From: Urechis unicinctus
Lineage: Eukaryota; Annelida; Polychaeta; Xenopneusta; Urechidae
Direction of reading: 5' to 3'
NCBI GenBank assembly: GCA_034190875.2
Contig: CM067354.1
Coordinates: 48,227,916 to 48,291,915 of the forward strand
Length of the DNA stretch: 64,000 bases
Below, piece after piece: positions 484 to 13,525 of the stretch. Under the pieces are notes generated by a model. That model saw nothing but the letters and a program-made list of their open reading frames with translations. It was not told the DNA's origin and searched no databases. Made by a program: the position numbers and the translations under genes. The first letter of the stretch is position 1. The number at the start of each line of letters is the position of its first letter.

Positions 484-2670
484 TTACATGCGCCATTTGG
501 TTCGTCGTATTTCCATATTGGTGTATACAGGATCGGAAGGCGTTTCCCTAGATTGATGAAACTGTACAGATGTGTACACATTCGCTTCGGGGGGTTCGAC
601 GTTAACGTAACGTGACAGTCCTTCATATGTGGATTCTTCAGCTCTGAATTGGCCTCCACCAAAAGAGCCATACTCGTTCGCTGTCTCCCCATCCGCTTTG
701 GCAATGTCTCCTGTCTGATCACAGCACAGTCCGGTACTTCCCTGGGTGCCAGCTACACTGGTCGGCATAACCATGACAGCAGGAGAGGATCTGCTTGCGC
801 GACGACGTCTGTAATGTTCAAATATATCACATAAACCATTCGATAAAAATATTGCTGTAAATAGGAAGTTCAATGTTTGAAGTCAACTGACCTGTACATC
901 AATAAACCAACGATGACGACGATGAGTATGCCAATAGCTGATCCAGCCGCCACTCCGATGGCTGTCAGCATCGAAACATCAACCGAAAGTGGTACAAGAC
1001 AAGAGTAGCCCCTTTTAGAATATTCTAATAATACCATGTGCGCCCAACGAACCATTGTCTAGATCAGTTAACCTTATTCTTCTGTTAAAGCAAGAAACTA
1101 ACAACAATAGCAAACCTTTCTTTGGTATGGTTTTTCGTTGAATAACAGCCAATGAGGTCCCATTTACAGGGGACACCAGCTCCGGAAATGCTACTGTATG
1201 CTGAATATTACACATGGAAAGCATGAAATTAGTGCTTTTGAGTATTAGTAATCGATTACCCAATACTAAGAATTTCCACCTATTAACTGTTTTTATATGA
1301 CACTATACTCTTATGAATACATAAATGTGTCAAACATTGAGCTCAGTAACTCAAGGCCAACCTTCCACACTGGGTGTTGTTTTCGGCTTTGTTGAAGTCC
1401 TTGCATGGGTGGTGGTTGTTGCTGTCGTTGCATCGGTGGTCGGTACTGATGATATTAGTAAGTGACATTTATTTCCACATTTGAACATCACATCTTTGTG
1501 AGATTTAATAGGTGATATATATGACAAGTTTTTTCTGATAATGAACAAGATATTACGCTAACAGTTAAAATCGATTCTTATAGCGTTTTGTTCATGCGGA
1601 AGCAGCCAGGTGTTATATTACTAATGTGGATATGGACAACATTAAGTTCCAAAAAACCACGGATTGATTCTGACTTTAAGCACTATTTGCTATCTTATTT
1701 AAAAAGCACCCACTGACCCCGGTATTGACAGCTGCTACCTCGCCATCCAGCCTGACACCGACCAGGACATCGCCCTCCTCGGTAGTCACAGATTGCGCGG
1801 TTATCACAATGGCATCGATTGTCACAATTCCCATTTCGTCCATAGGGATTAAAATACTCGCCCCTTTCACATACTATGGACATAAATAGATATATTCTTT
1901 CAGAATTTTCCTTTCATATCGTTGTCATGAAAAGAGCGCGAGAAAGAAGTATTTGTCTATACAGCTCAGTACTTCACCTACAACATGTTCTGAGACCTAC
2001 CTGAGTAGATCGCGATCTTCCAGTGTCCACCACAATCCTCATAGCGAGACCCGCTACAGGTCTCACGGCAGTAACTAGCGGACCCGTAGCGGGAGTGATA
2101 ACGACTGTTGCCACAATAGCATTCATTTCCGGACTACATGAAGCAGATAACATCGTGATGAGAAACGCGACTAACATTATAACAACTGACCTCCGTAAAG
2201 CTTTGCTAACCCACTTTTAACCTCTCCCCACCTCGACGCCGGCGAACGTTGTCCCGTGGCTGGACCTACACCAGTCCACGCACCACGTGACCGACACGCG
2301 GTCATGGTAGGTGTCATAAGAGGAGAGGACTCTAGGACTTCTGTCGTCATTGTAGCAGCCACGATATACTGTGCAGGCATAGTAAGAACGTCAAAAGTGA
2401 TCTTGAATTGAGGGTTGGTTTTTATAAATCTCTCATTTATACAGCAGCAATGTGCTTGTCGGAGTTCATTATAGGCAAATACACGTGAGAGCTTGGGGAA
2501 GTTTGAACCGTTAACGTTCATCCTCATTTCAAATAGCGGTAGGAAAGTATAAGGGACGAGATTAATTAAATATAACATTAAATCTATGATCAGCAAGTAA
2601 ATACAATCTTACCAGCACAAGTGATTTGTCGTACTACAACCGCCAATACGAAGGTTATGAACAAATCCAT
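484..2670 (-). CDS. WSC-EGF transmembrane receptor with tyrosine-motif tail, copy 1 (346 aa, 8 exons)
   Basis: Model built from splice signals. Exons in transcript order: 2613-2670, 2232-2368, 2001-2133, 1718-1873, 1362-1445, 1116-1193, 892-961, 484-808. Together they give 1041 nt, an exact frame. Exon 1 is a signal peptide starting MDLFITFVLAVVV. Exons 2-3 form a WSC domain (starts YRGCYNDD; then NECYCGN and CGGHWK), a family usually linked to carbohydrate binding. Exon 4 is a Cys-rich MEGF/SREC-like EGF domain ending GWRGSSC. Exon 5 is a short Thr-rich stalk, exon 6 a linker, exon 7 a Gly/Ile/Val transmembrane helix ending LLMY. Exon 8 starts with a basic RRRR stop-transfer, then carries YGSF, STYEGL, SRYVNV, VYTSV and VYTNM. 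STYEGL and SRYVNV fit the ITIM consensus, YVN and YTN fit Grb2-type sites, and YTNM fits the PI3K YxxM motif. Domain calls are from family knowledge; signalling is inferred. No named orthologue is recognised. Confidence 0.85.
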
Positions 2671-10934: not shown

Positions 10935-13525
10935 TTACACGCGCCATTTGGTTCGTCGTATTTCAATATTGGTGTATACAGGATCGGAAGGCGTTTCCTT
11001 AGATTGATGAAACTGTACAGATGTGTACACATTCGCTTCGGGGGGTTCGACGTTAACGTAACGTGATAGTCCTTCATATGCGGATTCTTCAGCTCTGAAT
11101 TGGCCTCCACCAAAAGAGCCATACTCGTTCGCCGTCTCCCCATCCGCTTTGGCACTGTCTCCTGTCTGATCACAGCACAGTCCAGTACTTCCCTGGGTGC
11201 CAGCTACACTTGCAAGGTGGGTCGGCATAACCATGACAGCAGGAGAGGATCTGCTTGCGCGACGACGTCTGTAATGTTCAAATATATCACATAAACCATT
11301 CGATAAAAATATTGCTGTAAATAGGAAGTTCAATGTTTGAAGTCAACTGACCTGTACATCAATAAACCAACGATGACGACGATGAGTATGCCAATAGCGG
11401 ATCCAGCCGCCACTCCGATGGCTGTCAGCATCGAAACATCAACCGAAAGTGGTACAAGACAAAAGTAGCCCCTTTTAGAATATTCTAATAATACCATGTG
11501 CGCCCAACGAACTAGATCAGTTAACCTTATTCTTCTGTTAAAGCAAGAAACTAACTACAACAATAGCAAACCTTTCTTTGGTATGGGTTTTCTTTGAATA
11601 ACAGGCAATGAGGTCCCATTTACAGGACCACCAGCTCCGGAAATGCTACTGTATGCTGAACATTACACATGGAAAGCATGAAATTAGTGCTTTTGAGTAC
11701 TAATAATCGATTATCCCATACTAAGAATTTCCACCTATTAATTGTTTTTCACATGACACTATACTCTAATGAATACATAAATGTGTCAAATATTGAGCTT
11801 AGTGACTCAAGGCCAACCTTCCACACTGCGTGTTGTCGAGGCCGTATATGTTGTTTTCAGCTTTGTTGAAGTCCTTGCATGGGTGGTGGTTTTTGTTGCA
11901 AGGGTGGTTGTTGTTTTTGTACGGGTGGTGGCTGTTGTTGTCGTTGCATCGGTGGTCGGTACTGATGATATTAGTAAGTGACATTTATTTCCACATTTGA
12001 ACATCACATCTTTGTGAGATTTAATAGGTGATATATATGACAAGTTTTTTCTGATAATGAACAAGATATTATACTAACAGTTAAAATCGATTCTTACAGC
12101 GTTTTGTTCATGCGGAAGCAGCCAGGTGTTATATTACTAATGTGGATATGGACAACACTAAGTTCCTAAAAACCACGGATTGATTCTGACTTTAAGCACT
12201 ATTTGCTATCTTATGTGAAAAGCCCCCACTGACCCCGGTATTGACAGCTGCTACCTCGCCATCCAGCCTGACACCGACCAGGACATCGCCCTCCTCGGTA
12301 GTCACAGATTGCGCGGTTATCACAATGGCATCGATTGTCACAATTCCCATTTCGTCCATTGGGATTAAAATACTCGCCCCTTTCACATACTATGGACATA
12401 AATAGATACATTATATTTCCTTTCATATCGTTGTCATGAAAAGAGCGCGAGAAAGAAGTTTTTTTCTATACAGCTCAGTACTTCCCCTACAACGTGTTCT
12501 GAGACCTACCTGAGTAGATCGCGATCTTCCAGTGTCCACCACAATCCTCATAGCGAGACCCGCTACAGGTCTCACGGCAGTAACTAGCGGACCCGTAGCG
12601 GGAGTGGTAACGACTGTTGCCACAATAGCATTCATTTCCGGACTACATGAAGCAGATAACATCGTGATGAGAAACGCGACTAACATTATAACAACTGACC
12701 TCCGTAAAGCTTTGCTAACCCACTTTTAACCTCTCCCCACCTCGACGCCGGCGAACGTTGTCCCGTGGCTGGACCTACACCAGTCCACGCACCACGTGAC
12801 CGACACGCGGTCATGGTAGGTGTCATAAGAGGAGAGGACTCTAGGACTTCTGTCGTCATTGTAGCAGCCACGATATACTGTGCAGGCATAGTAAGAACGT
12901 CAAAAGTGATCTTGAATTGAAAGTTGGTTTTTATAAATCGCTCATTTATACAGCAGCAATGTGCTTGTCGGAGTTCATTATAGGCAAATACACGTGAGAG
13001 CTTGGGGAAGTTTGAACCGTTAACGTTCATCCTCATTTCAAATAGCGGTTGGAAAGTATAAGGGACGAGATTAATTAAATATAATATTAAATCTATGATC
13101 AGCGAGTAAATACAATCTTACCAGCACAAGTGATTTGTCGTACTACAACCGCCAATACGAAGGTTATGAACAAATCCATGAGTTGGCGACGCAGGTTCAA
13201 GTGGTTGGTGTGTTGGAACTAGGTTAAACTGACAACAGGAGAAATTCCGGGTAGATGACCGAATAACTGCGTGCTCTAGGCTGGTCTGGCGGGGGCTGTG
13301 TCAAACCGGATATGATTTTAAACAATGATAAATAGCTCAGGAGAGTGCATTAACACAACTTTCGTGCCTACGCGGCTATACTCCCGATAATTACTTCACC
13401 AATGTGAAAAGGGTCAGCAACGTGTGATCCGGTTGATCTTTAAATGTTCACAGATATCGGTTAGCGAGTAGCGACAACTGTCACTGTCAGTGCGATAATC
13501 AACCTTGTATAATGCGGTGAAGCTA
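10449..13525. repeat. Tandem segmental repeat unit 3 (receptor copy 3), truncated on the right
   Basis: Third unit, colinear with units 1 and 2 up to the sequence just upstream of the receptor gene (about 13525), where a long TA-rich tract replaces the rest. The GGGA array and the 1.5 kb tail seen in units 1 and 2 are absent. Diverged pieces of a unit tail reappear at 14036-14150 and 14177-14410. Confidence 0.88.
10935..13179 (-). CDS. WSC-EGF transmembrane receptor, copy 3; frame closes only if exon 6 is skipped
   Basis: Exons: 13122-13179, 12741-12877, 12510-12642, 12234-12389, 11818-11961, 11572-11648, 11352-11421, 10935-11268. The signal peptide, WSC and EGF exons match copies 1 and 2 (EGF has FNPNGRNG for FNPYGRNG). 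The stalk exon (144 nt) is the long Thr-rich version, ending in phase 1 with STTRSVE. Exon 6 is the 77-nt form, which needs phase 2, so including it gives a frameshift and an early stop. Skipping exon 6 gives 1032 nt, 343 aa, with membrane and tail exons in frame. The tail is like copy 2 (VYTNI, extra HLA). It may be a skipped-exon isoform or an early pseudogene. Confidence 0.7.

Follow-up and report, generated by a model that had tools for sequence, protein, structure and literature searches.

We analysed a 64,000-nucleotide window of Urechis unicinctus DNA, C13:48227916-48291915 of a 1.19-Gb assembly, and found within its first 13.8 kb an array of three head-to-tail gene copies on the minus strand. 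Each copy has seven exons, encoding in order a signal peptide, the two parts of a WSC domain, an EGF-like module, a stalk, a transmembrane helix and a tail with tyrosine motifs. The array runs from the copy 1 stop codon at 484 to the copy 3 ATG at 13179, with gene bodies at 484-2670 (copy 1), 6020-8246 (copy 2) and 10935-13179 (copy 3), all on the minus strand. Gene models were predicted from the genomic sequence by anchoring splice sites, and every model intron is GT-AG. The features of the array, in window positions, are as follows.

484..808, minus: copy 1 exon 7, tail with STYEGL, SRYVNV, VYTSV, VYTNM and stop (splice model, motif count)
892..961, minus: copy 1 exon 6, transmembrane helix (splice model)
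1362..1445, minus: copy 1 exon 5, Thr-rich stalk, the shortest of the three copies (splice model)
1718..1873, minus: copy 1 exon 4, eight-cysteine EGF-like module (splice model, EGF-module profile/genome search)
2001..2133, minus: copy 1 exon 3, WSC second part, with a phase-0 intron inside WSC (splice model, Pfam)
2232..2368, minus: copy 1 exon 2, WSC first part (splice model, Pfam)
2613..2670, minus: copy 1 exon 1, ATG and signal peptide (splice model)
3015..3962, no strand: TA and AGGG repeat arrays, unit boundary 5' of copy 1
6020..6353, minus: copy 2 exon 7, tail, open by itself, with SAYEGL, SRYVNV, VYTSV and VYTNI (splice model)
6437..6506, minus: copy 2 exon 6, transmembrane (splice model)
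6900..7044, minus: copy 2 exon 5, stalk, frameshifted by one base within an A9 run (splice model)
7294..7449, minus: copy 2 exon 4, EGF-like module (splice model, genome search)
7577..7709, minus: copy 2 exon 3, WSC second part (splice model)
7808..7944, minus: copy 2 exon 2, WSC first part (splice model)
8189..8246, minus: copy 2 exon 1, signal peptide (splice model)
8591..9065, no strand: TA and GGAG repeat arrays, unit boundary 5' of copy 2
10935..11268, minus: copy 3 exon 7, tail with SAYEGL, SRYVNV, NVYTSV, PVYTNI and stop (splice model, motif count, C7 alignment)
11352..11421, minus: copy 3 exon 6, transmembrane helix (splice model, hydropathy)
11818..11961, minus: copy 3 exon 5, Thr-rich mucin-like stalk (splice model, composition)
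12097..12158, no strand: mosaic breakpoint in intron 4, in copy 3 coordinates (head side mostly groups copies 1 and 2, tail side copies 2 and 3)
12234..12389, minus: copy 3 exon 4, EGF-like module (splice model, EGF-module profile/genome search)
12510..12642, minus: copy 3 exon 3, WSC second part (splice model, Pfam)
12741..12877, minus: copy 3 exon 2, WSC first part (splice model, Pfam)
13122..13179, minus: copy 3 exon 1, ATG and signal peptide (splice model)

Copies 1 and 3 have intron phases 1, 0, 1, 1, 1 and 2: the introns at domain boundaries up to the transmembrane helix are phase 1, and a phase-0 intron splits the WSC domain. Both models are open, at 320 amino acids for copy 1 and 343 for copy 3. 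The original prediction, made from the letters of this locus, had described three genes of one plan; the array, its exact span, the module order and the WSC domain (by Pfam) were borne out, but copy 2 is frameshifted and the EGF module has no significant Pfam match. An additional exon lying between the stalk and the transmembrane helix (around 1115-1200 in copy 1) was rejected, as its phase clashes with that of the stalk exon and copy 1 differs there by one base in length. Indels are present in intron 5 between the copies, and a phase-1 stalk joined directly to a transmembrane exon beginning CCATCGG fits copies 1 and 3.

The predicted WSC domain was confirmed in the spliced models, which match Pfam PF01822 at E 1.4e-15 (copy 3) and 1.2e-15 (copy 1), with 57.7-57.9 bits against a cut-off of 27.8. 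It has eight cysteines in sequence, and its best match in the PDB is Kremen1 (E 1.9e-12 to 3.1e-12). The EGF module exon has no significant Pfam match (best PF23106, E 7.5), nor have three of its homologs (best E 0.16), and against the PDB it gave two weak, unrelated matches only (E 1.3-1.4). The label EGF-like therefore rests on eight cysteines and a closing C-x-x-G-W-x-G-x-x-C. The module nevertheless appears to be real and conserved, because a search with this exon listed it at 150 places of its own genome at E<=0.001 (the best 150 of 391 candidates, the array's three included); 12 of these places have internal stop codons, and most lie on C2, C14 and C13. The stalk is threonine-rich (Thr and Ser make up 59% of the 46 residues measured), and the transmembrane helix of copy 3 has a mean Kyte-Doolittle hydropathy of 2.7 with arginines after it. 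Pfam found no Kringle, CUB or EMI domain in the copy 1 and copy 3 models. No plausible protein tyrosine phosphatase (PTP) exon was found: the tail ends in a stop, and scanning the window plus the 20 kb on its left for motifs turned up six short, isolated matches, judged to be chance. Protein-database searches returned one match, to the WSC domain only, in a Haliotis protein, named integumentary mucin C.1-like, that combines Thr-rich repeats with a WSC domain; a further search returned none.

Each tail of copies 1 and 3 contains five tyrosines, and the peptides around them include SAYEGLSRYVNV and DPVYTNI. We took as an immunoreceptor tyrosine-based inhibitory motif (ITIM) the consensus [SIVL]xYxx[IVL] in the cytoplasmic tail of a type I transmembrane protein; copies 1 and 3 have two per tail, where shuffles of the same tail give 0.11-0.14 (P 0.004-0.008). 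Tail shuffles likewise give 0.72 Y-x-x-hydrophobic motifs against the 4 observed (P 0.001-0.002) and 0.18 YxN motifs against 2 (P 0.01). The ITIM-like and Grb2-type (YxN) sites predicted for these tails thus exceed shuffled expectation, and all four tyrosine sites recur in a diverged paralog on C7, described below. YxxM is not enriched (one in copy 1 against 0.18 expected by shuffling, P 0.17). The immunoreceptor tyrosine-based activation motif (ITAM), as Yxx[LI]x6-12Yxx[LI], does not occur in the tails of copies 1 and 3, and NPxY does not occur in the array tails.

The diverged paralog is a sister gene at C7:17580400-17583666 (L041+L038), which encodes a signal peptide, a WSC domain in two exons, an EGF-like module, a Thr/Pro-rich stalk, a transmembrane helix and a tail. 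The modules stand in the same order as in the array and the intron phases are equal at the junctions read (the stalk donor and the transmembrane acceptor are not among them). Compared with copy 3, L038 is identical at 32/44 positions in the second WSC part and at 32/52 in the EGF module. The C7 gene differs in its longer stalk and in one more YxxL, which creates two ITAM-spaced pairs: its tail has five Y-x-x-L motifs and two YxxL-x7/8-YxxL pairs against 0.013 expected (P 0.0003, tested after the pairs were noticed). Between the C7 gene and the array, synonymous sites are at or close to saturation (dS of 4.3 and 4.7 where it could be computed), and the common ancestry of the two is therefore not recent.

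The C7 and array tails are homologous on their alignment, which scores 67 where shuffles average 25.6 (P 0.0002). It includes 45 consecutive residues without a gap, a block that is identical at 15/45 positions and has four tyrosines in register (array/C7: SAYEGL/SDYEKL, SRYVNV/SVYARL, NVYTSV/NDYTRL and PVYTNI/PHYVNL), of which the first two fit the ITIM consensus in both genes. Identity is concentrated at the tyrosines and their -2 and +3 positions, at 9/12 against 6/33 elsewhere (Fisher P 0.0008), in a test of one gene pair on a block chosen from the alignment after inspection. Leaving out the tyrosines, the -2 and +3 positions are identical at 5/8 (P 0.02). By position, the tyrosine and -2 are identical in 4/4 sites, and +3 in 1/4 though aliphatic in 4/4. 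Searching the genome with the array tail gave 5 candidates and recovered just the three array copies; since the homologous C7 tail was missed, this is no evidence of uniqueness. Two further C7 stretches, L042 and L043, look degenerate, matching over only the first 28 tail residues and then running into a TA repeat.

The head modules of the array belong, on the searches made here, to a large receptor superfamily, since the same genome holds many WSC and EGF-module places. A genome search for WSC, made exon by exon with the best 150 of 488 candidates scored, gave 89 matches; because the array itself was missing from its list, the search is insensitive to split exons and this count is a lower bound. 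Of 18 stretches fetched, 16 that bear WSC were read, picked from the top and spread of the WSC list rather than at random. A profile search found an EGF module 3' of WSC in 9/16 (L014, L015, L016, L024 and L027-L031), the profile having been built from six modules and five of its nine positive stretches having been in it. Six more stretches (L037-L040, L042 and L043) were read from the 150 EGF places.

Several of these heads are attached to receptor tyrosine phosphatases. Phosphatase exon motifs (YINAS, DFWRMIW) occur on the gene strand in 5/16 stretches (L025-L029) and in L039; among L025-L029 they occur together with the EGF module in L027, L028 and L029. The phosphatase is assigned by Pfam in L029, where two joined exons match PF00102 at E 6.4e-18, and by motif in L039 (C13), L027 (C8) and L028 (C15). 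These genes are putative phosphatases as to activity, no catalytic-loop exon having been found in the fetched DNA. They resemble the array in WSC and in the same eight-cysteine EGF module, with WSC split over two exons in L029 and L028 (in L027 the first of the two was not located), and differ in having further EGF/EGF_CA modules and PTP exons after the transmembrane helix. L029 had at one stage appeared to be the nearest relative of the array (FastTree 0.90; IQ-TREE 87.2/76), a placement dropped once L038 was read. The grouping of the array with L038 has SH-aLRT support of 98.7 and an ultrafast bootstrap of 68; deeper nodes are weak, and the phosphatase may accordingly have been either lost or gained.

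On C2, the gene L015 shares with the array WSC, the EGF module, a transmembrane helix, a tyrosine-rich tail and the same intron phases at the sites read; the parts read are WSC, the EGF module, the helix and the tail. A second C2 gene, L036, has WSC, the EGF module and a tail related to that of L015, although its tail match is split over two frames; by eye, it too appears to have YxN and YxxM and no ITIM. The original prediction knew of no named receptor family with exactly this plan. That statement stands as far as the open literature searched goes, but the plan is not unique to the array within its own genome, being found again in the C7 gene (stalk-transmembrane junction not read) and partially in L015. 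Among the other stretches, L037 (C13), a 62% EGF match with one internal stop, gave no readable gene, and L040 (C14) has WSC, the EGF module and a transmembrane helix in the part read. Dense clusters of EGF modules lie at C14:28.5-29.0 Mb and C2:3.5-7.5 Mb, and near-identical WSC and EGF matches about 1.2 kb apart at C2:7.369-7.391 Mb look like a very young or misassembled tandem array. Beside the C2 WSC-EGF gene in L014, positions 2574-5705 hold an open reading frame (ORF) of 1043 amino acids that is retroelement-polyprotein-like.

The array is young, as predicted, with recent duplication inside a 79.6-Mb contig. Identity between copies 2 and 3 is 97.4% across 4.7 kb, while copy 1 aligns to those two in pieces of 91.6-95.8%. 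Over exons 1-4 (484 bp), copies 1 and 2 differ at one base, copies 1 and 3 at two and copies 2 and 3 at one. Between copies 1 and 3, the head exons carry fewer substitutions (2/484) than introns 1-3 (13/462, Fisher P 0.003) and than the tail exon (8/325, P 0.018); between copies 1 and 2 the contrast is small (head exons 1/484, introns 3/469). Across the whole frame, copies 1 and 3 differ by 9 non-synonymous and 5 synonymous codon changes (dN 0.012, dS 0.023). Two-state sites that group copies 1 and 2 make up 14/22 on the head side of the breakpoint in intron 4 and 1/42 on the tail side (permutation P 5e-5), in a test that excluded sites at which copy 2 alone differs and a poorly aligned block below 10750. 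Copies 1 and 2 thus look homogenised on the head side. Given the few head-exon differences and this mosaic break, the head appears conserved or homogenised, the opposite of diversifying.

The window and the 20 kb on its left showed only three gene bodies. Those 20 kb also carry two more partial copies, lacking a gene body, of the intergenic stretch of the repeat unit. This stretch contains a small ORF at 4580-4813 and 9499-9726 (both minus strand; no significant Pfam match), the first of which ends at a strong AG|GTAAGT donor. Elsewhere in the window, 32122-32349 (minus) is a fibrinogen C-terminal domain exon (PF00147, E 6.4e-11), and 60844-62013 (minus) encodes the last channel domain and C-terminus of a voltage-gated sodium channel (PF00520, E 2e-34), with sodium channel type 9 as best PDB match (E 2.5e-113). 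In a protein-database search the best matches of this channel reach 73%, and the first named one 58%. Rfam and phage searches gave no match, and eight pattern matches to viral contigs were found, none of them confirmed.

We lean towards reading the array as type I surface receptors that dock phosphotyrosine-binding partners through a tandem ITIM and a C-terminal YxN site, with an inhibitory outcome. The WSC-EGF head, held out on its mucin-like stalk, would bind a ligand, either glycan or protein, and Src-type kinases would phosphorylate the tail tyrosines. The first pair, S-x-Y-E-x-L-S-x-Y-x-x-[V/L], could then act as a tandem ITIM, docking SHP/SHIP-type SH2 phosphatases and so dampening the signal, while the last site, Y-x-N-[I/L/M], could dock Grb2; the receptors may be used in immune cells. 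The tail probably works as a switch like those of immune receptors, because the distant C7 sister also keeps the tyrosine motifs. SH2 docking would explain why -2 is kept alongside the tyrosine and an aliphatic +3; endocytic sorting would account for the tyrosine and +3 only.

Several observations weigh against this interpretation. The conservation rests on the single comparison with C7, and copy 2 is not open as assembled: one extra base in the A9 run of its stalk exon leads to stops before the tail, which is either a sequencing error or a real defect. The inhibitory sign is ambiguous because the C7 tail matches ITAM spacing as well as ITIM. It is also less sure than docking itself because L015 has 3 YxN (P 0.007) and 2 YxxM (P 0.045) with no ITIM among 8 tyrosines, L036 appears alike, and the L014 tail, with 6 tyrosines, has no motif excess at all. 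A tail homology between L015 and the array looked good by eye (YE.., YMDM, YTSL, YQNI) and is not claimed, with P 0.24 against copy 3, 0.019 against copy 1 and 0.08-0.2 for the C-terminal part. Finally, YxxPhi is also an AP-2 endocytic signal, and a conserved tyrosine with an aliphatic +3 is therefore no proof of SH2 docking.

These points bear on the alternatives. The tail could be activating or a scaffold (for Grb2, PI3K or Syk-type partners), making the genes glycan-triggered activating or phagocytic receptors; the YxN excess in the array, the ITAM-spaced pairs of the C7 sister and the motifs of L015 all fit such a tail, but the array tails of copies 1 and 3 have no ITAM match, with [L/I] at both +3 positions, and the first two of the four aligned sites are ITIM consensus in both the array and the C7 gene, so that we consider it possible but not probable. 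Were the YxxPhi motifs instead to serve clathrin AP-2 endocytosis or sorting of a mucin-like membrane adhesion protein, all four aligned sites, the Thr-rich stalk and the mucin-named Haliotis match would be accommodated. A single YxxPhi usually suffices for AP-2, which is not known to require -2 residues or a +2 Asn; the C7 gene keeps the tandem S-x-Y spacing, the -2 residues S, S, N and P and the +2 Asn of the last site, and sorting without phosphotyrosine signalling seems distinctly improbable.

Other alternatives concern the copies themselves. The array may be partly a product of assembly (uncollapsed haplotypes) or decaying, with only one or two functional genes, as the near-identity of copies 2 and 3, the frameshift and the repeat arrays at the unit boundaries would suggest. 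Copy 1, however, aligns to the others at about 92% in its 3' portion and the sequence downstream, and its stalk differs from theirs in length; the array lies inside its contig with two partial intergenic units further left, and the copies show a mosaic break rather than uniform divergence; we regard this explanation as unlikely. The original prediction had also suggested a fast-evolving recognition receptor. Recent tandem duplication, differing stalk lengths and the excess of non-synonymous over synonymous codon changes in number would agree with it, but the head exons are near-identical, with fewer differences than introns 1-3 for copies 1 and 3, dN lies below dS, copies 1 and 2 look homogenised on the head side and the gene bodies seen number only three. 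For these three copies that idea is very doubtful, and the comparison largely refutes it.

Returning to the docking receptor that we favour, a broader and more speculative proposal is that one WSC-EGF head has been shuffled, within a single animal, onto three opposed phosphotyrosine outputs: a built-in phosphatase (C13, C8, C15), the ITIM-like tail of the array, to which a phosphatase would be drawn in trans, and the ITAM-spaced tail of C7, which would bring in kinases. We think this conceivable but on balance unlikely. If true, it would amount to a paired activating/inhibitory system on a WSC-EGF head without immunoglobulin or leucine-rich repeat (LRR) domains, whose heads perhaps read beta-glucan or other glycans. 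The array tail has kept its tyrosine motifs while the tail block diverged to 15/45 identity, and the same genome joins related heads to receptor phosphatases. The WSC-EGF genes therefore offer a concrete way to test if unrelated heads repeatedly acquired paired activating/inhibitory signalling, and if an ITIM can take the place of a covalently attached phosphatase.

Among known systems, MEGF10/Draper-type receptors have an EMI domain, many EGF repeats and an NPxY tail, while the array has no EMI match, one EGF-like module and no NPxY. Alr heads are immunoglobulin-like (Ig-like), and the fungal Wsc sensors are not known to have an EGF-like module or a phosphotyrosine tail. The fungal sensors do share with the array a WSC head, a transmembrane helix and a cytoplasmic tail, and Wsc1 has a PAN/Apple fold with eight cysteines (PMC9024836), the number found in the WSC domain of the array. 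The same source describes a fungal lectin of three WSC domains that binds beta-1,3-glucan, single fungal WSC domains without an obvious pocket, and the WSC-bearing Kremen, which binds proteins (PMC9024836). Kremen1/2 resemble the array in WSC, and Xenopus kremen 2 is reported to have a phase-0 intron inside its WSC region (PMC3927609), as has the array; they differ in their Kringle and CUB domains (PMC5014086), neither of which matched in the array models.

In the open literature, subscription papers excluded, no receptor combining a WSC domain, EGF, a transmembrane helix and ITIM was found, nor a description of WSC and EGF with a receptor-type protein tyrosine phosphatase, and the accessible parts of PMC4581086, PMC3927609, PMC5336659, PMC2754085 and PMC6767649 do not describe the array plan. 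A WSC domain with immunoreceptor tyrosine-based motifs was found there only in amphioxus BbLcLRR. As presented in the sections of PMC8211107 available, this is an invertebrate transmembrane receptor with a SMART-predicted WSC among its LRRs, whose ITIM-like tail tyrosines bind SHIP1 and, less, SHP1/2; it is like the array in these respects and unlike it in its LRR ectodomain, and EGF is nowhere mentioned in those sections. Botryllus FcoR and Hydractinia alr candidate genes are, in the available text of PMC12065747, also germline-encoded invertebrate receptors with ITIM/ITAM-type motifs (ITIM/hemITAM-type tails), FcoR differing from the array in its Ig and sushi domains. Invertebrate ITIM/ITAM-type signalling is, on these partial sources, known from few cases, and the array sets its WSC-EGF head beside those with Ig and sushi domains (Botryllus FcoR) or LRRs with a predicted WSC (amphioxus).

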